From the IMG/VR virus record IMGVR_UViG_3300042566_000324, positions 1 through 43,283 of that record: a stretch of 43,283 nt of DNA, one strand, 5' to 3'. Both the position numbers and the translations under genes were made by a program. Below the pieces are notes generated by a model, which did not search any database, had not been told where the DNA came from, and saw only the letters and a program-made list of their open reading frames with translations. Below are positions 1,336 to 18,942 of this stretch, one piece after another (the first letter of the stretch is position 1; every line of letters starts with the position of its first letter). The stretch comes from a virus.

Positions 1336-2946
1336 TTATAAAGTGTTTAAACCTTCAACGATAATCTTACCGTAGAATTCTGGTCTTACGATTTTCTTAG
1401 CGTATCTAGTCATAACACCTCTTCTTGGAGTGAAGTTAGTTGGGTCATAAACTAATGGAGTCATAATCAACGGAACATATGGAGCGTATACAGCACCTGT
1501 TTCGAAGAAGTTAGAACCTTTGAAACCTAATAAGATTACATTCTCAGTCATGTATGGGTTTTTGTAAACATCATATCTGTTAGAGATTGAACCGATATTA
1601 GTAACACCTGCTGCGAAAGTTAACGCATCCTTACCAGGATTTGCAGAGAAACCGTTCATTGATTCTAAAATAGTAGCTACGTTTGGAGATACAACTAAGA
1701 AGTTAGCACCACCTCTCATAGTTAACTGATGGATTTTGTTAGATACCTTTTGTAATTTGATACCTAAAGTTTGATACCAAGTACTCTTAGTGTAAGCAGA
1801 TGCAGCGGCTGCATTTGCGTCGATTGCAAATGCACCAGTTCCTGCGTTATAATCGTATCCAACTCTTGCAGACCAATAATCAGTTGTGAAAGCGTTTTGT
1901 TGTAACATATCTAAGATTTCTAAGTCGATTTCTAAAGAGATGTACTCAGACAACATTTGAGTTAACTCAGCTTCAGCGTCTACACTATGGTAAGCGTTTA
2001 AGTCTTGAGCTAATTCTGGAGTCCAAATTGCTTTTAATTTTCTTGTCTTAGCAACGATTGGTTCAGATTTCAATTCTAATTCGATTTCTGGGATAGCTAA
2101 GTCAGAACCTCTATCTTCGAAGTCACCTCTGTTGTAATCGGTTGGTTGAACGTGGTAAGTCAATACTTGACCTGCCAAGTTAACGTCAGTTGCAGCAGAA
2201 CCAGAAATGATAAATGATGCAGAACCTTCAGACAATGTAGTGAATTCTGGGAATAAAGTTGTTGTTGCAGAACCAGAAACTTTGAAAGCTTTGATTCCGT
2301 TGTAATCAGCGTCAGCTGGTAAACCAACTGTTACTTTCATTACTCTGTGGTTAGCAGTTGCGATAGATGCAGATAATGCAGAATCAAATCTAACATCAGC
2401 AACAGATGCAGAAGCTACAGTAGCTGTTACATTTGCAGTTGTGTCGTTGATTGTGTATCCGAATCTACCAGAACCATAAAGACCACCTTCAGTAGCTTGA
2501 GTAGAACCCAATTTGTTACCCGCTGGAGATAAATTGTCTTTACCGAAAGTACCACCATTACCGAACATAGAAGAACCAGATGCTGGTCTACCTAAAGTTG
2601 TGTTAGTACCATATTTAAAGTCCATGTAGAAAATAAGACCTGAAGGTAAGTTCATAGGTTGTACTGAAACGAACTCTTTAGAAGCGATAGAACCGAAGAT
2701 TCTTCTTACTAAAGGTAACGCAACACCAGCCCACTCTTCAGAACCTGAAGATGTACCTGTTCTTGTAGCCTCATCTAATAATTGTTTAGCTTGGTTTTCT
2801 AACATTACTGCCATACCATGCTTGCTTGTTTCAGAACCTGCGTTCTCTAACAAACCTGTTTTTTCCCACTTAGCTTTCAAACCTCTTGTTTGCTCTAACA
2901 TAAGAGTTTGAGGGTTTGCGCCAGTCATTAATTTTTTTAAGTCCAT
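1336..2946 (-). CDS. gp23: Major capsid protein, T4 gp23 type
   Basis: This 536-aa protein (T4 gp23 is 521 aa) forms the hexamers of the prohead shell. The signature region around residues 75-110 reads VALPLVRRIFG, then FVSVQPMNLPSGLIFYMDFKYG-like sequence, the classic gp23 motif of T4-related phages. T4 gp23 is matured by the gp21 protease after a (I/L)xE site. Here LLDE-A at residues 56-60 (cut after Glu59) lies at the equivalent place, about 15 residues before the conserved region. The gene follows the scaffold gene by 28 bases, has an A-rich leader without Shine-Dalgarno, and ends in a strong terminator. By eye its codon use is more GC-rich and regular than its neighbours', as expected for the most highly expressed virion protein. 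Confidence 0.96.
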   Translation of the reverse strand: MDLKKLMTGANPQTLMLEQTRGLKAKWEKTGLLENAGSETSKHGMAVMLENQAKQLLDEATRTGTSSGSEEWAGVALPLVRRIFGSIASKEFVSVQPMNLPSGLIFYMDFKYGTNTTLGRPASGSSMFGNGGTFGKDNLSPAGNKLGSTQATEGGLYGSGRFGYTINDTTANVTATVASASVADVRFDSALSASIATANHRVMKVTVGLPADADYNGIKAFKVSGSATTTLFPEFTTLSEGSASFIISGSAATDVNLAGQVLTYHVQPTDYNRGDFEDRGSDLAIPEIELELKSEPIVAKTRKLKAIWTPELAQDLNAYHSVDAEAELTQMLSEYISLEIDLEILDMLQQNAFTTDYWSARVGYDYNAGTGAFAIDANAAAASAYTKSTWYQTLGIKLQKVSNKIHQLTMRGGANFLVVSPNVATILESMNGFSANPGKDALTFAAGVTNIGSISNRYDVYKNPYMTENVILLGFKGSNFFETGAVYAPYVPLIMTPLVYDPTNFTPRRGVMTRYAKKIVRPEFYGKIIVEGLNTL

Positions 2947-2974: not shown

Positions 2975-4207
2975 TTATTTTATAATACCTGCTAATTTCT
3001 TAAATCTGTCGGAGAAATTTGTGCTTTCTGCAATTACTGCTTTAGCTTGTGCTGGCTTAGTAGATTTTGATACTTTGCTAGCAATTCCTTCAGAAATAGA
3101 TTTTTTAGTAGATTTTTGTGTAGTTGAAGTATATTTGAAGTTCTCTGCTAATGTAGAGAATACCAATTTAACCTCTCTTACTGATTTTGTTCTATCCAAA
3201 GTTTCAATCACTTTAACTTTTTGTTCGTTAGTCATGTTGTGTGCTCTGAATAATTTATTAGCGAATAATAACTTAGCGTTTAATAAGTTTACTTCGTTAA
3301 TTGTTCTTTGTAAAGATTTGATAGTCTTGTAAGCTTCGTTTAATTCAGCATCTTTTTCGTCAGCTTTCTTATCTTCCGCATCACCTTTCATATCATCTTC
3401 CATTTCTCTTAAGATTTCTTCTAAATCAACAACTTCTTTGTCATCTTCTTTAGAATCTTCTTCAGCTTCGTTAGTTGATTTCTTTTCGTCATCTTCTTCT
3501 TCAGCTTCGTTGGTTGCTTTTTCATCATCTTCTTCTTCAGCTTCATACATAGAATCTTCTTCTTTTTCAGAATCGTCTCCATCTAATTGTGCTTCCAATT
3601 CTCTGATGATTGCTTCTAAGTCCATATCATCTTCAGACTCTTCGTCATCAGAACCCATGTCCATTGAATCGTCACCCATTTCAGAATCCATGCCCATGTC
3701 ATCCATGCCCATTTCATCTTCACCTTCTGCTTGTGCAAATGGATTTTCTTCTTCTTCAGAATCTTCTCCTTCTAATTCTGCCAATCTAGCTTTCAATTCT
3801 GCAATTTCTGCATCTTTGTCACCTTCTTGGTCATCAGCGAATGGATTTTCTTCTTCAGAAATGTCTGCTACTTTCTTATAGTCAGTACCAGCTTGTTCTG
3901 GCTTACCACTATCTTTTTTTACACCTACTGATAAATCAGTATCTGCATCTAAAGTTGGTGTTGCACCAGGAGTCTCAGCGTATCCTGCTTCAACTTTTGA
4001 ACCGATTCCAGTAGAATCTAATTCTTCGTCAACTTTTTTAGCGTCATCATCTTCCATTTCTGCTTCTGCTCTCATCTTTTGAGATAAGATAGATTGTAGT
4101 CTTGGAGTAAATGCTTCTTCTAAAGCTAACTTTGCGTTTGCTAAAGCGGTTTCTTTAACTGCTTTGGCATCAGCGATTGCTTCTTTCAATAATTTTGAAT
4201 TTGCCAT
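2975..4207 (-). CDS. gp22: Prohead core scaffold protein, T4 gp22 type
   Basis: A 410-aa acidic, low-complexity, helical protein (T4 gp22 is about 270 aa) that should build the internal core around which gp23 assembles. The start is the ATG at 4207, preceded by AAGGAG at good spacing; a TTG at 4258 is also in frame but lacks such a signal. The N-terminal 50 residues (LLKEAIADAKAVKETALAN) contain LKE-A and LEE-A sequences that fit gp21 protease sites. Residues about 130-310 are Asp/Glu-rich with Met-Gly-Asp repeats and NEAEEEDDEK repeats. The C-terminal third (NEVNLLNAKLLFANKLFRAH, then QKVKVIETLDR and VKLVFSTLAE) is the part I recognise from gp22 of environmental T4-like phages. The position between protease and capsid genes agrees. 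Confidence 0.88.
   Translation of the reverse strand: MANSKLLKEAIADAKAVKETALANAKLALEEAFTPRLQSILSQKMRAEAEMEDDDAKKVDEELDSTGIGSKVEAGYAETPGATPTLDADTDLSVGVKKDSGKPEQAGTDYKKVADISEEENPFADDQEGDKDAEIAELKARLAELEGEDSEEEENPFAQAEGEDEMGMDDMGMDSEMGDDSMDMGSDDEESEDDMDLEAIIRELEAQLDGDDSEKEEDSMYEAEEEDDEKATNEAEEEDDEKKSTNEAEEDSKEDDKEVVDLEEILREMEDDMKGDAEDKKADEKDAELNEAYKTIKSLQRTINEVNLLNAKLLFANKLFRAHNMTNEQKVKVIETLDRTKSVREVKLVFSTLAENFKYTSTTQKSTKKSISEGIASKVSKSTKPAQAKAVIAESTNFSDRFKKLAGIIK
3455..3550 (-). repeat. Imperfect tandem repeats in the scaffold gene
   Basis: Direct repeats with periods of 39 and 36 bases (units starting near 3462, 3501 and 3537 on the plus strand) encode repeats of the type TNEAEEEDDEKK. They lie in the acidic spacer of the scaffold protein and probably tolerate copy-number change. 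Confidence 0.7.
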
Positions 4208-4395
4208 CTGTTTTCTCCTTAAATTTTGTTGTGAAGTTATTCTTGTAGGGAACTCCAATGTAATTATGTTGATTGTTCGGTCACACCTTATAGAGAAGGG
4301 TATTCATTAATCAACGATGTCTTGTAATCTTATAATAAAAAAATAAGATATTTGGTAATAAATATGTAAATTTTTTAGAAAACTAAAGAAAACTA
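4208..4395 (-). promoter_or_regulatory. Leader of the scaffold/capsid genes with an SD sequence
   Basis: This 188-base stretch holds no gene that I can support. It separates bS21 from the scaffold gene. An AAGGAG Shine-Dalgarno sequence lies at 4215-4220 before the scaffold ATG, unusual in this window where most starts have none. Further upstream is a very AT-rich segment (4325-4375) with a 7-bp inverted repeat (4327-4333 with 4343-4349) and no following U-run. The stretch is long enough to carry the promoter for gp22-gp23, but I cannot point to the exact element. Confidence 0.45.
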
Positions 4396-4572
4396 CTAAA
4401 ATAGTTTGTTTTTTCTTATAGTTTCTTCTTTTTGTAACCTTTTTCTTTTAGAGGGTTTAGTAAAATTCTTTCTATCCCTCAATTCTTCTATTTGTTTTGT
4501 GGACTGAACTTTCTTTTTATATTCTTTTACTGCCCATTCTATATTCCCACCCTTAACACTAACTATTAACAT
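4396..4572 (-). CDS. rpsU: Phage-encoded ribosomal protein bS21
   Basis: A 58-aa basic protein, ATG at 4572 and TAG at 4396-4398. It begins MLIVSVKGGNIEWAVKEYKK and continues with IEELRDRKNFTKPSKRKR, the bS21 layout: an N-terminal beta strand, then two basic helices, with the F-x-KPS-x-x-R motif typical of Bacteroidota-type bS21. bS21 sits on the 30S subunit near the anti-Shine-Dalgarno end of 16S rRNA and influences mRNA selection. Phage copies are known from several environmental phage groups. The gene starts 13 bases after the preceding gene's stop and lies just before the scaffold gene, so it is expected to be made late with the head proteins. It may bias host ribosomes towards phage mRNAs (inference). 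Confidence 0.85.
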   Translation of the reverse strand: MLIVSVKGGNIEWAVKEYKKKVQSTKQIEELRDRKNFTKPSKRKRLQKEETIRKNKLF

Positions 4573-5949: not shown

Positions 5950-6540
5950 TTAGTTTAATTCTATTATAATTTCTCTCATTAAATCTTGCGACTTACACCA
6001 CTTACCACATTCCTCTGCCACCTTTGCCCATTGTTTACTTTCGTTCATAGGAGCCATAAATGCACCATGTGTAGATGGATTAGATACAAAATCCCAACCT
6101 ACCAGTTCAAAATCTTCCTGAACCATTACAGTTCCATCTTTTAATTCTTTTACGGAACCTAAACCTCTTGATGAAATTCCTAAACGAATATTATTCTTTA
6201 ATAATTCTTTTAATATATTACCAGATGGAGTTGAAAGAATTTCTACTACACCACATACATCATCACCTTCCCAATAGATTTCTCTAATATTATGTGATAC
6301 ATTTTTTAAATTGATAACCGGAGATTCTGGATGGTCTAATTCACCCAATGCTCTTCTTTCCTTAATAAGTTGTTCGTATTTTTTACACTCTCTTTCTAAG
6401 ATTTCTCTAGGATATCTTCTATGATTTTGATTTGGAGCACCTGCTCTTTGTAGGATTCCCTTAACTAAATAAGTTCCGTTTTCTTCTTGTTGAAGTTTTG
6501 CTTCAAACAAATGTGTTTCTATCAATAATCCTTTACTCAT
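5950..6540 (-). CDS. gp21: Prohead maturation protease, T4 gp21 type
   Basis: A 196-aa serine protease (T4 gp21 is 212 aa) that cleaves the scaffold and the capsid N-termini during head maturation. The family signature is clear: GELDHPES at residues 66-73 supplies the catalytic His70, and GISSRGLGS at 121-129 the nucleophile Ser (123/124). The conserved tail ELVGWDFVSNPSTHGAFMAP at about 145-165 closes the domain. The N-terminus contains LFE-A (residues 11-14), a plausible self-cleavage site of (I/L)xE type. The start codon overlaps the stop of the preceding gene (TAATG at 6540). Position between portal and scaffold is canonical. Confidence 0.93.
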   Translation of the reverse strand: MSKGLLIETHLFEAKLQQEENGTYLVKGILQRAGAPNQNHRRYPREILERECKKYEQLIKERRALGELDHPESPVINLKNVSHNIREIYWEGDDVCGVVEILSTPSGNILKELLKNNIRLGISSRGLGSVKELKDGTVMVQEDFELVGWDFVSNPSTHGAFMAPMNESKQWAKVAEECGKWCKSQDLMREIIIELN

Positions 6541-8751: not shown

Positions 8752-10491
8752 TTACTCTTTATCGTAATCTTCCGTTAAAATAGTTTTTTTATTACCATTC
8801 ATATCTTTAAATATCTCTTGATAATTGTTTCTAGGTTTATATTTTACGGAACCTTCTTTTGCTTTAAGAGTCTTAATTCCCAACGGGTCTCTACCTTCAG
8901 GATGGTCATCCTTACCATATCTAACTGGGTCTTTTGGTCTACCAACACCATCTTCTGCCAATTCTTCCTTTAATCTATTTAATTCTTCCTCTACATTGGT
9001 AGTTCCATCAGTACCTGTTTCTTTTGCCGGGTCCATACCTTGTGTTTCGATTGAAGTTAAACGGAATGTTTGTTTGGTATCATCTAAAACTTGCAATGTC
9101 ATTGTATCTTGTTCATCTTTGGCCATTTTCATCACTGCATCATACATCCATTCTTTTGAGAACATTTTAGTTGCTTGCATTTGTTGAATTAATGCTACCT
9201 TTGAAGTATACAATTCAACTTGCTCTTGCTCATAGATTTTAGATGGTATTGTAAGTTCTAATGAAAAATTAGTTAATCTATCATCATCTATACCTTGTGC
9301 ATATAGATGGACAATTGCAATTTTTGTTAATTCTGAAATCATAACTCTTTGAATTCTTTCAATAGTTTTTGCAAATCTAATGTCCATTGCTGCAAGAGTT
9401 GCTTTACCGTTTGTATCTTCTTCGTATCCCATGTAAGCTTTTGGAATTTTCAATGCTGCCATTAACTTACCTTTTAAGTAGTTAATATCATCAATCATAT
9501 TGTATTCCAAACCTTTCAAAGTATCAATTGAAGTTCCATTATCATTACCACGAACAGGCATATAATAATCTTCAATAAGGTTTTGCATATTATATTTCAA
9601 ATTATACTCACCGGTTCTTTCATCAACAAAAGGAACTTTTTTAGATGAATTGATAATTTTCTGCATGTAATTATCCACTTCATTTGGTGGAATATTACCA
9701 ACATCTATTTTAAAAATTCTTTTTTCAGGGGCCCTCATTACTCTATGAATTAACATAGCATCTTCCATTAACATCAATTGTTTCCAAACTCTTCTACCAC
9801 CTTCAATCATTGATTTACCATAAGGTAAAAAATTTGAATCCGAATTTAAACGGAAATGGGCCATTTCATAATTTTCAAATTCTTTCTTTGCAGATTGTCC
9901 TACTGCATTGTATGGATTTTGATATGGTGCATATACAAATTTAACTCTTTGTGGATTAGTTGGGTCAAATCCCTCAACTCTACTCATTTCATATACCGAT
10001 AATGGTGCAACACCTACAATACCGATTTTATCTGCCATCTCTAATTGTAAAAAGAAATCACCATATTTAACTAAATTTCTAGCCCATGGCCATAAGTTAA
10101 ATTCTACATTAAGAATATCGTAAAATAAATTTTCTAATATTTGTTTAACATTGTCATCTTCATGATGAATTTTCAATACATTTCCTTGCTCATTTCTGGC
10201 AGTACATTCATCAGCGTAAACATCCAATGCCGATGATAATATCGGGTCTGTATCCATAGAGTCGTAATCTCTAAATAAATCAATTCTAACTTGTTGATAT
10301 GCCATTGAAGATTCAACCTGGCCACTACCATAGTTAGTGACTTTCATTTTCATAAATCTATCTACCAAATTTGTGGTCATATTTTGCCACTCATCAGTAT
10401 CGACTACTTTAATACCCTTTTGTGTCTGACGAACAATGGTATTGGTCGAAAATAATTTTTGTAACCTATTAAATATTGATTTATCTGCCAT
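8752..10491 (-). CDS. gp20: Portal vertex protein, T4 gp20 type
   Basis: A 579-aa protein (T4 gp20 is 524 aa) that forms the dodecameric DNA channel at one head vertex. Conserved segments include YDSMDTDPILSSALDVYADE (about residues 75-95), the LVKYGDFFLQLEM block, and MRAPEKRIFKIDVGNIPPNE with KAYMGYEEDTNGKATLAAMD further on, all characteristic of T4-type portals. The C-terminal 90 residues are charged and glycine-rich, longer than in T4. It follows the micro-module gene by 54 bases and leads the core-protein cluster. The leader is A/T-rich without Shine-Dalgarno. Confidence 0.95.
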   Translation of the reverse strand: MADKSIFNRLQKLFSTNTIVRQTQKGIKVVDTDEWQNMTTNLVDRFMKMKVTNYGSGQVESSMAYQQVRIDLFRDYDSMDTDPILSSALDVYADECTARNEQGNVLKIHHEDDNVKQILENLFYDILNVEFNLWPWARNLVKYGDFFLQLEMADKIGIVGVAPLSVYEMSRVEGFDPTNPQRVKFVYAPYQNPYNAVGQSAKKEFENYEMAHFRLNSDSNFLPYGKSMIEGGRRVWKQLMLMEDAMLIHRVMRAPEKRIFKIDVGNIPPNEVDNYMQKIINSSKKVPFVDERTGEYNLKYNMQNLIEDYYMPVRGNDNGTSIDTLKGLEYNMIDDINYLKGKLMAALKIPKAYMGYEEDTNGKATLAAMDIRFAKTIERIQRVMISELTKIAIVHLYAQGIDDDRLTNFSLELTIPSKIYEQEQVELYTSKVALIQQMQATKMFSKEWMYDAVMKMAKDEQDTMTLQVLDDTKQTFRLTSIETQGMDPAKETGTDGTTNVEEELNRLKEELAEDGVGRPKDPVRYGKDDHPEGRDPLGIKTLKAKEGSVKYKPRNNYQEIFKDMNGNKKTILTEDYDKE

Positions 10492-11619: not shown

Positions 11620-13227
11620 TTACTTAAGTAACCAAGTTAGGTTTTCTTTATCACCTCTACCCAAATCCATTTCATATGGATTTTGTTTTAAATGATTTGT
11701 TGTTATCAATCCTTCATATTTATTTATATGTGCAGAATTTAACATTTGTTTTGTTAAATCTATACCCTCTTGTTTTAATCGTAATGCAGTATTACGAACC
11801 CAAAGGCCAATACCTAACGCCATAATAAGGTCATCGTTGTATCCTTTCATCGCTTCTGCTCTACCACTATGCCAAACAAATGTAAACATTTCATCTATCA
11901 ATCTACTTGAACGAATTAGAATATCTTTATCATTTATATAGGTGTCTAATGCCGATATGATAAGTGGACGAGTTTTACTGGTTGTCGAAAATCCTGCCAC
12001 CATTTGTCTTTCATCTCTATAATATTTGTTAGACATTTGTCTTTCGGTATCAATATATTTCAAATCATTACTCATATAGAATAAATTTTGATATCCTCTA
12101 TTGATAATTTGTTGAATACATGCCCAACCGACATTTGAATTCTCCACTATTAAAAGTGCATTATTATATTCGGTTGCAAGTGCTGTTAGGAAATTACCGA
12201 AATCTTTTGTTTCAATTTTACCTCTATATTCGGCAACTTGTGAACTATCTTCGATATCAATTACTTGTGCAGTAGAATAATCGGCTCCATCACCTCTGGC
12301 CACGTCGGCTGATATCATATAAGCTCTATTATAGTTTGGATGTTCCCATACCCAAAGATTGTTATCAAATCCTCTTTTTTGTGCAGGTTCCATTACATAA
12401 GTGTCCTTATACCAAGTCAATAATGCGGGTTCAAAAACAGTATCACCCGAACCAACAAAGTCACAATCACATTCCTGCGCTGCACCTTTAACTCCTAATA
12501 TACGAGTTTGTTCATCTCTCCATGCCTGATTTCTTTCTGGGTGAACTGTCCAATGTAGATTGATATTATTAAATCCGTTTTGACCACTCTCACCATCTAC
12601 CCACATTTTATGAAACCAGTTACCAATACCATTTGGAGTAGACAATACGATTGCAGAACCACCCGTTGATAAGGTTGATTGAGCTGATAACCAAATTTCA
12701 TCAATATCTCTAATGAATGCAGCCTCATCCACAACTAATAAGGATAGGGCTTCCGAACGACCTGCGTCTGGAGAACTTGCGATTGCTTTTACTTGTGAAC
12801 CATTTTTTAATTTAAGGGAAAGTTTGTTATCTTCTGCAGCCGCAGTTCCACCATCTCTCAACCAAATAGGAAGCAAATCGTGCATAACTCTTACCTTCTC
12901 TACCAGATTCTTAGCTACAGTCACTTTCGTTGCAATTACCAACGCATTGAAGTCCTGATTGAATATCATCTTCCAAAGAATAAACCCTGCAGATAAGGTC
13001 GATAGACCCAACTGACGAGATTTAAGAATAATGTTAAAACGATTGTCTTTGAAGTCTGTTAAACATTCTTCCTGGAAAGGATAAAGGTGAAAGGGAATTT
13101 TTCCTCTCACCGGATGCTGAATGACACAATACTTTTTCATAAAGTAAATTGGGTCTAACGCACACTTGCGATATTCTTCAGCAATTATCTCTTTTAAGGT
13201 TTTCTTAGGTTGCCCTTGAACTCCCAT
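11620..13227 (-). CDS. gp17: Terminase large subunit, T4 gp17 type
   Basis: A 535-aa packaging motor ATPase and headful nuclease (T4 gp17 is 610 aa). Residues 69-77 (KSRQLGLST) form a Walker A of the variant type in which the Lys sits at the start of the loop rather than before Ser/Thr. Walker B is LLVVDEAAF (163-170) and the coupling motif is VLSTPNG (193-199). The C-terminal RuvC-like nuclease shows ISADVARGDGADYS (first Asp), LIVENSNVG (Glu) and YNDDLIMALG (last Asp). The start overlaps the preceding stop (TAATG), with no Shine-Dalgarno. A small terminase subunit is not obvious nearby, although the 222-aa protein upstream is a candidate by position. Confidence 0.95.
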   Translation of the reverse strand: MGVQGQPKKTLKEIIAEEYRKCALDPIYFMKKYCVIQHPVRGKIPFHLYPFQEECLTDFKDNRFNIILKSRQLGLSTLSAGFILWKMIFNQDFNALVIATKVTVAKNLVEKVRVMHDLLPIWLRDGGTAAAEDNKLSLKLKNGSQVKAIASSPDAGRSEALSLLVVDEAAFIRDIDEIWLSAQSTLSTGGSAIVLSTPNGIGNWFHKMWVDGESGQNGFNNINLHWTVHPERNQAWRDEQTRILGVKGAAQECDCDFVGSGDTVFEPALLTWYKDTYVMEPAQKRGFDNNLWVWEHPNYNRAYMISADVARGDGADYSTAQVIDIEDSSQVAEYRGKIETKDFGNFLTALATEYNNALLIVENSNVGWACIQQIINRGYQNLFYMSNDLKYIDTERQMSNKYYRDERQMVAGFSTTSKTRPLIISALDTYINDKDILIRSSRLIDEMFTFVWHSGRAEAMKGYNDDLIMALGIGLWVRNTALRLKQEGIDLTKQMLNSAHINKYEGLITTNHLKQNPYEMDLGRGDKENLTWLLK

Positions 13228-14595: not shown

Positions 14596-17500
14596 TTAAG
14601 AGTAAAAAATACCAAGTATTTGATTTAATGGTGCAAATGTACCCGTTAATTTATAAGTTTTACCATTGTAAAAGAATACCAATCCTTCATTTGCTACTAT
14701 TTTATCAATACCACCCAATTGATTTAATCGTTCTAATTCCGATTTTAGTTTTTGGATTTGTGTTGGATTTCCTGCAGTTCTGACTTGGTCTGCAACTTGT
14801 TTGAATTTTTGTTTCATTGCTCTTATTGCATTTTCAGGATGAACGGTTAATACACTTCCAACAAAGTCTAAAACATCTGCACCAACTCCTAAAAATATTT
14901 CTTCAAATGGTTTTATATTTTCTTTTTGTTGTTTTGCAACATTTACTTTATCATTTTGCATTGCCCATTTTTGCAATTCTACATTTGAAATTGTATTTAA
15001 TCTAAATGATTTATCACCAAATGCCCATCTTCTAATTAAAGATTCTTTTGTAAGTTTGTCAACTTTTACTGGACTATTTGATGTAATCCACCAATCCCAC
15101 CAACTTTGATGATAATCTGCAACATTATCGTTATCTTTTAAATGAAATTCTGATTGTAATTTGTTTAATTTAGATAAATATTTACCTTGCTTAGAACTAA
15201 GGTCTGCGGATTTTGGAATTGATGTAATCGGTGGTCCTTGAATTGTATACTTTGATTGAACATCTGCGTTTACTTGTTTAATCATTCCAGCTAATGTAGA
15301 AGCTGCCGAACCATCTGCACCAATTGCTTCACCTTTTTCATTATAACAAGTTGTATTATGAAATACTAATAAAGCCTGTCCATACGGAATTACATTAACC
15401 GAATCTGGCCATATTACTTCCAAATTCATAAAACATTTTCCCTCATTAAATATTTTTTTTCTTTGAGCTTCCGAAAGAGATTGAATAGCTGCCGATAAAT
15501 CTTTCATTGCAAAATTGTATGCATCGGTTAAACCACCTCTTCCACCAAACTTGGATGCAACATCTTCTATACCCATTGCATTTTCTCCTGCATTTGCTAG
15601 GTTACCTTTATTACGGGCTGCAATTAATCTACCATTTTTCCAACTTATTGCTAAAGCTTGTCCGTCTGTTTTTTCTCTAACTACTCCTAAATCACCATTA
15701 AGTGCTTTTGTGATAATATTTTTTAAATCACCAAAAGTTAAATCCATATCATCGAATGGATGTGACATATGCCCATATGCACCACCTTCCATCAATAATC
15801 CTTCTTTAATAAATTCGGTTTTTACATATTCTATATCTGGTAGGTTTTTTATACTATATGTAATCGTTCTCTCCTCTGCATCTTCATCGCCAAATATTGC
15901 ATCTGCTTTTGGAAATTCCGTTTGAGTATACCCACCATTTTTATACCAATCCTCACTCTTATCGGTATTTAATTTTCTTTTTTTACCTTTTTTAATAAAT
16001 GAACCATCTGGAACATCAGCTGTGTTTGCGGTTGCAACATTACTAACTTCGTTTAAATCGGGTTCAATGTTTAATTCTTTTTCCATTCTTGTAATATCAT
16101 CATACCCCATATTACGAAGTTCTCTTGCTACATCATTTGGATTATTATGATTTGGATTGCCAAATAAAAATGCATTAATTCTTTTTCTGTATTTAGAATC
16201 TCTATATAATTTAATAATATTTTTAAAATGAATATCTTTATTACCCATTTCGTAAATATTTTGTCCTTTTTTACCAATTCTAAATGTAGTTGCTTGCTTA
16301 CCATTGATTGTTGGCATTCCGTGGTCATCGGTTCCAATATCTTTAACGGTAACTTTTTTGTTTTTAAATTTGCCCATTAAAACTTCATCCCCTTTGTTCA
16401 CATTTACATTTATATTTTCATTATAAATTTGTTTATTTATTTTACCATAATTTCTCATTAAGATACCAGCAACAGCATGAGCTTGATTTTCAATTGGAGA
16501 ACCGGTTGCACCATCTTTAACTTCATCTCTCACTAAACCCAATTCATCTTGTTTCCTATGAACCATTTCGTGTGCAAGTGTTCTTAAAATATCAGCAGTT
16601 AATCTACCTTCAATTGCAACATATATTTCTTTAGACATTGGATTATATCCACCTAAACTGGTTTTTGCTTCTGAATATTCTTTACCTGATACTAATGTTA
16701 TTTTTGGTTGTTCTTTTAATTTTAATTTTTTAGTTGCATATTCTACAAAGTGATTTATAGAATTTTGTTTTGATTCAGAAATATTTTCTCTTAATAAGTT
16801 TGCAGCGTTTTGCTTTGGTTTATTTTTTTTATAATCTTCAATTGATTTAAGAAGTTGTTCGTCTGATAATTTATAGGTTTTCATTTTTTCAATTACTTTA
16901 CCAATAAAATTATAAATAAATTTTTGACTACCATTTTCTTTATTTGTATCAATACTTTCTAAAATACCACCAGTTGCTGCCGATAATCCAGCTCCTGCAA
17001 ATGGTGCATGGTGAGCTTGTAATCCCAATGTTTCAAATGATGCATGTTTTATAATATCTTTACCCAAATGTAAACCAAACGAAGTTGCACCATGCGTAAA
17101 TGCACCAACAGTTGATGTACTACCTGCTGAAAGTGCTGCCATTAACCCCTTTCCTGCTACTGCCGCCTTTACACCACCTACCGCAAATGCACCCAATGCA
17201 ATTGAACCTAAGATTAATGCACTATCAAATGCAAAATCCCACATATCTTTCTTTTGTTTTTTGGTTTCTTTCCAAGATGCTTCAAATAATTTCTTTTGTT
17301 CATCGGTAGCGGATTCCGATATTTTTGGTTTTTTTTCTTTTTTCTTTTTTCCTGTTGGTTGACCATGTGAATCTAACACATCGGTTTCAACTTCTTCATA
17401 TTCTTTTTTACCATCTGGCCCAACGGAAGTAAATTCACTCCAATGTCTACGTTTTCCGTCTTTGTCTTTTATGGTACCAATTTTACCAGTTTTTGAAAGT

Positions 17501-18942
17501 GATATTAGTGCATCCATAGTTCCACCAACTATTTCTTTTTTATGATGAAACCAGTTTTTAATTCCTTTTCCAAATTTTGAAACACCCTTTAATATTGTAT
17601 CTACTACATTTTTTCTTTCTGGAGATTCCGGATTATTATATAAATCAATGTCTTTATTATCTTCTGCAGACATTTCTTTTCTAGCTTTGTCGATTGCATC
17701 TTTAGTTTGTGCTGCAATTTTATCTGCAGGTGTTGTTTCTGCAGATGACTTTAATTCGGTTCCACTTAATTTTTGTTCAGGTGGTGGCCCTTGTTCTTCT
17801 CCAGGTGTTGTTATACCGGCTGCGTTTGGTTGTTCTTTATCAATTTTACCTTGTGCAGTTTGGTCTTTTTTAGTTGGTTGTCCCGGTTGAGCAGGCTTAG
17901 CTGATTGTGTTGCAGCTTTTCCTGGTTCTTCTTTTTTCTTAGGTTCATTTACAGGAGCATCATCTGGTCCTAATATTTTTGCAGCTTGTACATGTGCAGG
18001 ATGTTCTTTTGGTAATCTTAAAGCATTTCTCGCTTTAATTTTTTTTGGTCTACCTTTGCTATCCGTATATGGAATTTCAACATCCAATGCTTTATTTACA
18101 TCTTCTTCAAAATAGTTTTGGGCCCAAACTTCGAACATCTCATTTGTAATAACCCTTTCTATTATTTCTGAAATTGGGTCATACGGGTCATTTTTTTTGT
18201 GCCAATCAGGTTCATCGGATGGATGTTCTTTTTCATGTCTTGTAGGATGTGGTTCTGGTCTCATTTCGTAAGATGGGTTTGTATTATTACTTTCATCTAC
18301 TGAACCCGTTGGTGCACCATTAATATATCCTCCTGGTAAATTTAATCCAACTCCTATACCACCCGGAAAATCTTCGTTTAATTTTGATGTTATCATCTTA
18401 AAAATATCTTTGTCAAATTTTGGATATGCTTTTAAGAAAAACTTTTTAGCTTTTTCTTTATCATTATTTCCTAAACCATTTCTAACCTCTGTTCCACTAA
18501 TTGGATTCTCTTCGGCAGGAATTGGATATGTGTAACCAATTTCATCATAACCATATCCAGCTTTACCTTTATATGGTTTAAAATATTTACCTTGCAATCT
18601 TGTAGCATCCTTTTCACCAACTGCTGCAATATATGCAATGGTTTGTCCATCGTATTTTTTTAATATTTCAACAGGTCTATACGGATTATTTACTTTTACA
18701 AATTTAGTAGACGGAACACCAAACATCTTAGTTGCAATTTCCTTTTTTTCATTAAAAGAAAATGGAGATTTATCAGAAGATGTATCGTTTGATGTTGCAA
18801 TATAAACATTTGCAGAACCAAATTCGTTTACCAAATTTTGATATGCTGCATAATGTCCTTTATGAAATGGTTGGAAACGACCTGCGTAGATTGCTACTTC
18901 ACCTTGTATTTTTGGTTTATCTTTTTCTAATAATGAATTCAT
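14596..18942 (-). CDS. 1448-aa nucleotidylyltransferase/metallopeptidase/ligase-like fusion
   Basis: A giant three-enzyme fusion. (1) Residues 15-185: HxGH nucleotidylyltransferase (GRFQPFHKGH at 21-30, ISGTEVR at 148-154), closest in pattern to NMN/nicotinate or other small-molecule adenylyl- or cytidylyltransferases. (2) 320-560: Pro/Gln/Lys-rich disorder, then a Gly/Ala hydrophobic stretch at 570-615. (3) About 720-840: zincin-like peptidase, LAHEMVHRKQDELG (HExxH 791-795) with ENQA at 818-821 as third ligand. (4) About 1045-1448: covalent nucleotidyltransferase (ligase) fold: REKTDGQ with Lys1091, ARNKG, NLE (Glu1174), EGLVFF (1419-1424) and YKLTG with Lys1431, matching motifs I, III, IV and V; I recall related sequences as DUF6267. 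It lies upstream of the packaging genes. Substrates are unknown; a virion-carried enzyme is conceivable. Confidence 0.8.
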   Translation of the reverse strand: MNSLLEKDKPKIQGEVAIYAGRFQPFHKGHYAAYQNLVNEFGSANVYIATSNDTSSDKSPFSFNEKKEIATKMFGVPSTKFVKVNNPYRPVEILKKYDGQTIAYIAAVGEKDATRLQGKYFKPYKGKAGYGYDEIGYTYPIPAEENPISGTEVRNGLGNNDKEKAKKFFLKAYPKFDKDIFKMITSKLNEDFPGGIGVGLNLPGGYINGAPTGSVDESNNTNPSYEMRPEPHPTRHEKEHPSDEPDWHKKNDPYDPISEIIERVITNEMFEVWAQNYFEEDVNKALDVEIPYTDSKGRPKKIKARNALRLPKEHPAHVQAAKILGPDDAPVNEPKKKEEPGKAATQSAKPAQPGQPTKKDQTAQGKIDKEQPNAAGITTPGEEQGPPPEQKLSGTELKSSAETTPADKIAAQTKDAIDKARKEMSAEDNKDIDLYNNPESPERKNVVDTILKGVSKFGKGIKNWFHHKKEIVGGTMDALISLSKTGKIGTIKDKDGKRRHWSEFTSVGPDGKKEYEEVETDVLDSHGQPTGKKKKEKKPKISESATDEQKKLFEASWKETKKQKKDMWDFAFDSALILGSIALGAFAVGGVKAAVAGKGLMAALSAGSTSTVGAFTHGATSFGLHLGKDIIKHASFETLGLQAHHAPFAGAGLSAATGGILESIDTNKENGSQKFIYNFIGKVIEKMKTYKLSDEQLLKSIEDYKKNKPKQNAANLLRENISESKQNSINHFVEYATKKLKLKEQPKITLVSGKEYSEAKTSLGGYNPMSKEIYVAIEGRLTADILRTLAHEMVHRKQDELGLVRDEVKDGATGSPIENQAHAVAGILMRNYGKINKQIYNENINVNVNKGDEVLMGKFKNKKVTVKDIGTDDHGMPTINGKQATTFRIGKKGQNIYEMGNKDIHFKNIIKLYRDSKYRKRINAFLFGNPNHNNPNDVARELRNMGYDDITRMEKELNIEPDLNEVSNVATANTADVPDGSFIKKGKKRKLNTDKSEDWYKNGGYTQTEFPKADAIFGDEDAEERTITYSIKNLPDIEYVKTEFIKEGLLMEGGAYGHMSHPFDDMDLTFGDLKNIITKALNGDLGVVREKTDGQALAISWKNGRLIAARNKGNLANAGENAMGIEDVASKFGGRGGLTDAYNFAMKDLSAAIQSLSEAQRKKIFNEGKCFMNLEVIWPDSVNVIPYGQALLVFHNTTCYNEKGEAIGADGSAASTLAGMIKQVNADVQSKYTIQGPPITSIPKSADLSSKQGKYLSKLNKLQSEFHLKDNDNVADYHQSWWDWWITSNSPVKVDKLTKESLIRRWAFGDKSFRLNTISNVELQKWAMQNDKVNVAKQQKENIKPFEEIFLGVGADVLDFVGSVLTVHPENAIRAMKQKFKQVADQVRTAGNPTQIQKLKSELERLNQLGGIDKIVANEGLVFFYNGKTYKLTGTFAPLNQILGIFYS

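Follow-up and report, generated by a model that had tools for sequence, protein, structure and literature searches.

A phage ribosomal protein bS21 with arginine at position 54, encoded upstream of the scaffold gene of a T4-like phage, and a candidate leader RNA

Introduction

Whether phages change the mRNA choice of the host ribosome through a bS21 of their own is an open question. An earlier note on the DNA studied here stated that bS21 helps to hide the anti-Shine-Dalgarno (anti-SD) in Bacteroidota, which holds for Bacteroidia (McNutt 2023, PMC9976891). In Flavobacterium johnsoniae, Tyr54 of bS21 stacks on A1534 and steers the 16S 3' tail into the bS18/bS6 pocket, where its docking hides the anti-SD, and either Y54A or a C-terminal truncation (dC) increases the translation of strong-SD mRNAs (PMC9976891). 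For Bacteroidota phages, the published reading is that the aromatic residue gripping the tail is kept, so that the phage bS21 acts like that of the host; in the survey of Chen et al. 2022, position 54 was reported to be aromatic in each of 61 phage bS21s (PMC9723584). The locus described here, a bS21 gene upstream of the scaffold gene of a T4-like phage, raises the question again.

Results

A bS21 gene within the head-gene cluster

The window, a linear IMG/VR record analysed over its whole 43,283 bases, belongs to a T4-like phage with the following genes in its head cluster:

1336-2946, minus strand: gp23 major capsid (head) protein, without SD
2975-4207, minus strand: gp22-type scaffold gene, 410 aa, ATG start at 4207
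4396-4572, minus strand: phage bS21 gene, 58 aa, assigned by Pfam and PHROG matches and by alignment
5950-6540, minus strand: gp21-type prohead protease, here with AAGGA upstream
8752-10491, minus strand: Gp20 portal
11620-13227, minus strand: TerL

The gp22 start is the ATG at 4207 and not the upstream TTG of the listed open reading frame, leaving a gap of 188 nt to the bS21 gene, which lies upstream. Minus-strand translation of 4396-4572 gives MLIVSVKGGNIEWAVKEYKKKVQSTKQIEELRDRKNFTKPSKRKRLQKEETIRKNKLF; the plus-strand reading is full of stops. The product scores 45.9 bits with Pfam PF01165 (Ribosomal_S21; E 4.7e-12), for which the curated cut-off is 27, and the match spans the whole domain (residues 4-55, profile positions 2-54/55). 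It also matches PHROG 21469 ('ribosomal protein S21'). The earlier note had read both the bS21 identity and the placement before the scaffold gene in the head cluster from the letters, and both readings are borne out. An alignment-based structure model has three helices (mean pLDDT 79); its Foldseek matches in the PDB were weak (E 0.4-7, nothing under E 0.001), and all of them came from ribosome or mitoribosome entries.

In 45 of 80 contigs found by capsid similarity, bS21 occupies the same slot, two of the 45 holding a 3' fragment only. The gene is under purifying selection (median dN/dS 0.148, 1551 pairs), and this ratio, together with the occurrence at the same place in dozens of relatives, indicates that the frame is not due to chance. 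Among the contigs with enough sequence to judge, eight lack bS21 and keep the order of the other genes (L007, L008, L009, L020, L026, L028, L047 and L068); no bS21 was found elsewhere in the records of the first six, which are fragments of 15-102 kb. In three of these relatives, L007 (4061-4577), L008 (4287-4559) and L009 (4284-4556), the slot between o123 and the gp22 leader encodes one or two small proteins that combine a membrane-like stretch with a coiled-coil-like tail.

A phage bS21 within the head-gene cluster has already been published (Mizuno 2019, PMC6375957; Chen 2022, PMC9723584). The phages of Chen 2022 are likewise T4-like, associated with Bacteroidota, and carry bS21 inside a TerL/portal/protease/capsid cluster, an arrangement that L349 fits; however, their bS21 lies on the reverse strand, whereas that of the window is co-oriented with the late genes on the minus strand. 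The L349 gene (8001-8189), which encodes Tyr54, sits inside the head cluster but on the strand opposite to it. The bS21 of Pelagibacter phage HTVC008M is also a phage bS21, but of alphaproteobacterial origin, and its host ribosome is not of the anti-SD-hiding kind (PMC6375957).

Elsewhere in the window, a minus-strand gene (14596-18942) encodes a 1448-aa protein with an N-terminal cytidylyltransferase-like domain, and downstream, to ~40 kb, are genes with sugar-nucleotide, glycosyltransferase, radical SAM and methyltransferase domains. Together they look like surface-glycan or virion-modification genes.

Arginine replaces Tyr54 in the window clade

The phage bS21 shares with the F. johnsoniae protein (PDB 7jil; PMC9976891) the core, the alignment, the N-terminus MLI and the KPS hinge. 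It differs in length (58 against 64 aa), in lacking an SD before its own gene (1/54 in relatives), where F. johnsoniae has an extended one, and in the residue aligned with Tyr54, which is Arg (residue 53 of the phage protein). No gaps occur in the alignment between the KPS..KR anchor and this position. Among 93 distinct bS21s of the window clade, position 54 is Arg in 86, His in six and Tyr in one, which contradicts the published generalisation of an aromatic residue at this position in phage bS21s (61/61 in Chen 2022). The nearest Bacteroidia cellular genes have Tyr54 in 80 of 80 cases, as do all 38 Bacteroidia-type host bS21s in a second sample of 395 genomes of the phylum. The same sample contains another bS21 type (IDRALKRFKKKYERSG) with Arg54 in 11/11, which in our reading represents non-Bacteroidia classes.

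The comparison of host and phage bS21s proposed in the earlier note grouped the window clade with Bacteroidota host and phage sequences (63 columns, 96/97), apart from the bS21s of other T4-like phages and of E. coli and B. subtilis, the last two of which were entered by hand. When column 54 was left out (62 columns), the window clade and the Chen-type phage L349 came together (99/95), nested in the Bacteroidia-type set (91/89, also 92/55), and Arg54 is accordingly best read as derived in the window clade.

These data bear on the host. A Bacteroidota host outside Bacteroidia (Chlorobia- or Ignavibacteria-like) with its own Arg54 bS21, which the phage would only match, would fit the 11/11 Arg54 type, subject to our own class assignment, and the report that Chlorobia bS21 lacks Y54 (PMC9976891); a topology that unites the window clade and the Arg-type cellular group was not rejected (AU p 0.112). 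The best tree without column 54 nonetheless nests the clade among Bacteroidia-type sequences, its members have the Bacteroidia-type MLII-VKDG N-terminus and LRDRQTFTKPS stretch, one of them keeps Tyr54 and several have His54, and a Flavobacterium phage is among the near isolates, so that we regard such a host as unlikely. The nearest isolates by TerL identity are Flavobacterium phage immuto (52%) and Microcystis phage Mel-JY01 (50%), and SDs are missing from the head genes, as they are in immuto (0/19) and in Tyr54 Bacteroidota-type phages. Judged from the sequence, a Bacteroidia host is most likely.

Residue 54 was also inspected in other genomes. SD-using T4-like phages (L367, L375, L378, L385 and others) carry bS21 in the same slot, with an N-terminal extension and either Tyr or Arg at position 54. 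Tyr54 was thus rejected as a general mark of SD-less phages, and, given its occurrence in SD-using phages, the state of the anti-SD must depend on more than residue 54. A second, divergent bS21 gene with Tyr54 retained is present in some Bacteroidia genomes (L506, from Mesonia aquimarina, and L518, L519, L520 and L522), with no SD before the start except in L518 (GGAAGG).

A Shine-Dalgarno sequence at gp22

The SD of the scaffold gene lies 7 nt before its ATG:

4215-4220, minus strand: gp22 SD, AAGGAG, at the 3' end of the leader RNA described below

The earlier note had confined AAGGAG to gp22 and a few other genes, and rightly so: strong anti-SD pairing was found in only four besides gp22 among the 47 listed genes of the window. 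In relatives, gp22 has an SD in 27 of 38 distinct upstream regions with bS21, against ~6% expected from shuffles, and in 4 of 10 distinct upstream regions without bS21. For gp23 the counts are 0/55 with bS21 and 0/10 without, and the remaining head genes are at or near expectation, the largest counts being those of o195 (6/45) and gp21 (5/48). These gene-by-gene counts tie the SD to gp22 itself and not to late genes in general. The same holds within Arg54 phages, where gp22 alone stands out; genome-wide SD use was discarded, the pooled 16.5% reflecting gp22-centred loci and many near-copies.

The raw association between Arg54 and the gp22 SD is strong (80/92 against 7/20, Fisher p 5e-6), on rows that are related and with a coding (Arg54 versus His or none) picked after a first look at the data. 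On the gp22 tree bS21 changed seven times and the SD five times, and independent pairs hardly ever change together; no relation was found in independent pairs on the gp22 and concatenated trees, and on the gp23 tree the direction was as predicted but not significant (median p 0.06-0.25). Coupling of the gp22 SD to bS21 across the clade is accordingly not supported. Four relatives without bS21 (L007, L008, L009 and L020) have the SD, and several Arg54 relatives lack it. Members with His54 or Tyr54 were seen only with SD-less gp22 leaders, a count biased by the fetching of part of them with an SD-less pattern.

An SD (AGGAG) in this position is usual for gp22 across the wider T4-like clade, which makes inheritance together with the leader RNA the simplest reading; the gp22 SD probably came down with that RNA and did not arise for bS21. 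Our own estimate of its pairing with an 11-nt anti-SD tail is about -8.2 kcal/mol. Autoregulation of rpsU requires an extended SD below -13 kcal/mol (PMC9976891), a value that the gp22 AAGGAG does not reach. The F. johnsoniae rpsU system is similar in that a single SD gene stands in an SD-less setting with bS21 as the candidate switch, but here the SD gene is the scaffold gp22, the SD is weaker and its link to bS21 is hypothetical.

A candidate leader RNA before gp22

The gap between bS21 and gp22 is the longest conserved non-coding stretch seen in this analysis, and contains three further elements:

4206-4315, minus strand: gp22 leader RNA of ~110 nt with three stems (P1-P3), identified by covariation, without Rfam match
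4327-4349, minus strand: AT-rich hairpin ATCTTA..TAAGAT, upstream of the leader RNA, from an alignment read by eye
4372-4391, minus strand: TTTCTTTAGTTTTCTAAAAA box, conserved in relatives just 3' of the bS21 slot, a possible promoter

The leader RNA ends at the gp22 start, with the SD at its 3' end. Its stems are P1 (GTTGATT/AATCAAC), P2 (TACCCTT/AAGGTGTG, with a bulge) and P3 (TTGGAGTT/AACTTCAC). They were predicted from 47 sequences aligned without structure, in which three P1 pairs show double changes. In an alignment of 33 sequences fitted to the structure, with four distant members carrying much of the signal, 15 of the 20 pairs change on both sides and 99.5% of the cells pair; none of 500 shuffles reached this covariation, and slid controls gave 34-51%. 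Folded singly, the leader sequence has a free energy that does not improve on that of shuffles (z +0.8), so that it is the covariation that carries the case for the structure.

A first leader model found the element in L348, with a rebuilt P2, and scored weakly in Mel-JY01 before the gp22 homologue. In 915 kb of sequence from distant relatives, a second model returned 32 matches with E values up to 2, and 30 of these lie at most ~20 nt from the gp22 start; position was not used in the search, and the model contains the A-rich and SD stretch, which may raise the score. Leaders of distant T4-like phages were located in L083 (8772-8875), L348 (8258-8370), L380 (5015-5111) and L403 (1303-1410), and within the clade the next frame after the leader is gp22 in all 94 loci where it is visible. 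Searches with Rfam 15 at the gathering score returned no match to any known RNA family in the window or in ten distant loci. No description was found in the open-licence literature, and the leader RNA appears to be undescribed in the sources searched. Like the manA and wcaG motifs (PMC2864571), it is a structured RNA in a T4-like phage mRNA leader; it differs from them in having no Rfam match and in that the downstream gene is always gp22. It is a candidate for a new cis-regulatory RNA family, preceding gp22 across a broad range of T4-like phages.

The bS21 gene is located directly upstream of this conserved RNA, and in the same head region in Mel-JY01, as might be expected if the phage bS21 were an extra-ribosomal RNA-binding protein acting on the gp22 leader, in the manner of ribosomal-protein leaders. 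The leader is nevertheless kept in relatives that have no bS21 (L007, L020, L026, L028, L047 and L068), which shows that bS21 is not needed for it and makes this explanation very improbable.

Variants of the hairpin read by eye in relatives are TCCC/GGGA, TCCT/AGGA and TCTC/GAGA, and its arms appear to co-vary (CTTA/TAAG, CCCA/TGGG, CCTA/TAGG). It is possibly a terminator or a further part of the leader element. The TTTCTTTAGTTTTCTAAAAA box was rejected as a recurrent late promoter, having a single occurrence in the window.

Discussion

The reading that we tentatively favour is one in which the T4-like phage would have acquired its bS21 from a Bacteroidia host and retained it among the head genes, where the protein most likely contends with the host's bS21 for a place on the 30S platform while virions are being made. 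In support of entry into the 30S, the bS21 of HTVC008M enters E. coli ribosomes (Mizuno et al. 2019, PMC6375957); bS21-encoding phages express the gene together with structural genes (PMC9723584). Given the Arg in place of Tyr54 and the shorter C-terminal tail, 30S subunits with phage bS21 would have a weaker grip on the 16S 3' tail, and with it on the anti-SD, than those of the host. Subunits altered in this way would keep initiating on the A-rich, SD-less mRNAs of the phage, and the SD that closes the gp22 leader, the only clear one in the head cluster, could become usable to them in addition.

Against this model stand the gp22 SD in relatives without bS21, its absence from several Arg54 relatives, the rarity of joint changes on the gp22 tree and the occurrence of Tyr54 in SD-using T4-like phages. 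Published results weigh on its simple form too. The SD of rpsU is much stronger than the one at gp22, and on a weak-SD mRNA the Y54A and dC ribosomes fall below wild type (PMC9976891). Ribosomes with dC are also poorer with SD-less mRNAs (PMC9976891), a deficit that counts against the model because nearly all phage mRNAs are SD-less.

A plainer explanation is that phage bS21 merely replaces or tops up an exchangeable host bS21 on which SD-less initiation depends, with no effect on the anti-SD, Arg54 being drift at a position where the former constraint has gone and the gp22 SD a relic. Most F. johnsoniae initiation needs bS21 (PMC9976891), the phage is SD-less apart from gp22 and a few genes, the wider clade points to an ancestral gp22 SD, and no relation of that SD to bS21 emerged on the gp22 tree, all of which suit plain replacement. 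What speaks against it is residue 54: Arg is nearly fixed (86/93) and His and Tyr are confined to one SD-less subgroup, a pattern that makes selection look likelier than drift, and Tyr54 is invariant in the host bS21s. We consider plain replacement a serious contender and rank the loosened-tail model slightly above it, as a tentative preference.

The earlier note had suggested that the phage bS21 could retune ribosomes late in infection towards scaffold and capsid transcripts. An altered ribosome is plausible in view of Arg54, but the capsid part is not supported, as no SD was found before gp23. For the scaffold gene, a demonstrated link between SD and bS21 does not stand either, given the SD in relatives without bS21, its absence in some Arg54 relatives and a relation that is not significant once corrected for the tree. 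The more elaborate proposal of specialised ribosomes, in which the Arg54 bS21 would unhide the anti-SD for use on gp22 alone, with the SD presented by the leader RNA, is doubtful.

For the wider question of phage control over mRNA choice, the clade provides a natural series at residue 54, with Tyr, His or Arg or with no bS21 gene at all, in syntenic phages and adjacent to one SD-bearing gene, which makes the question testable with the existing F. johnsoniae reporter system. Separately from this, the leader RNA is a candidate for a regulatory element that stands at the start of capsid assembly, over a wide range of T4-like phages.
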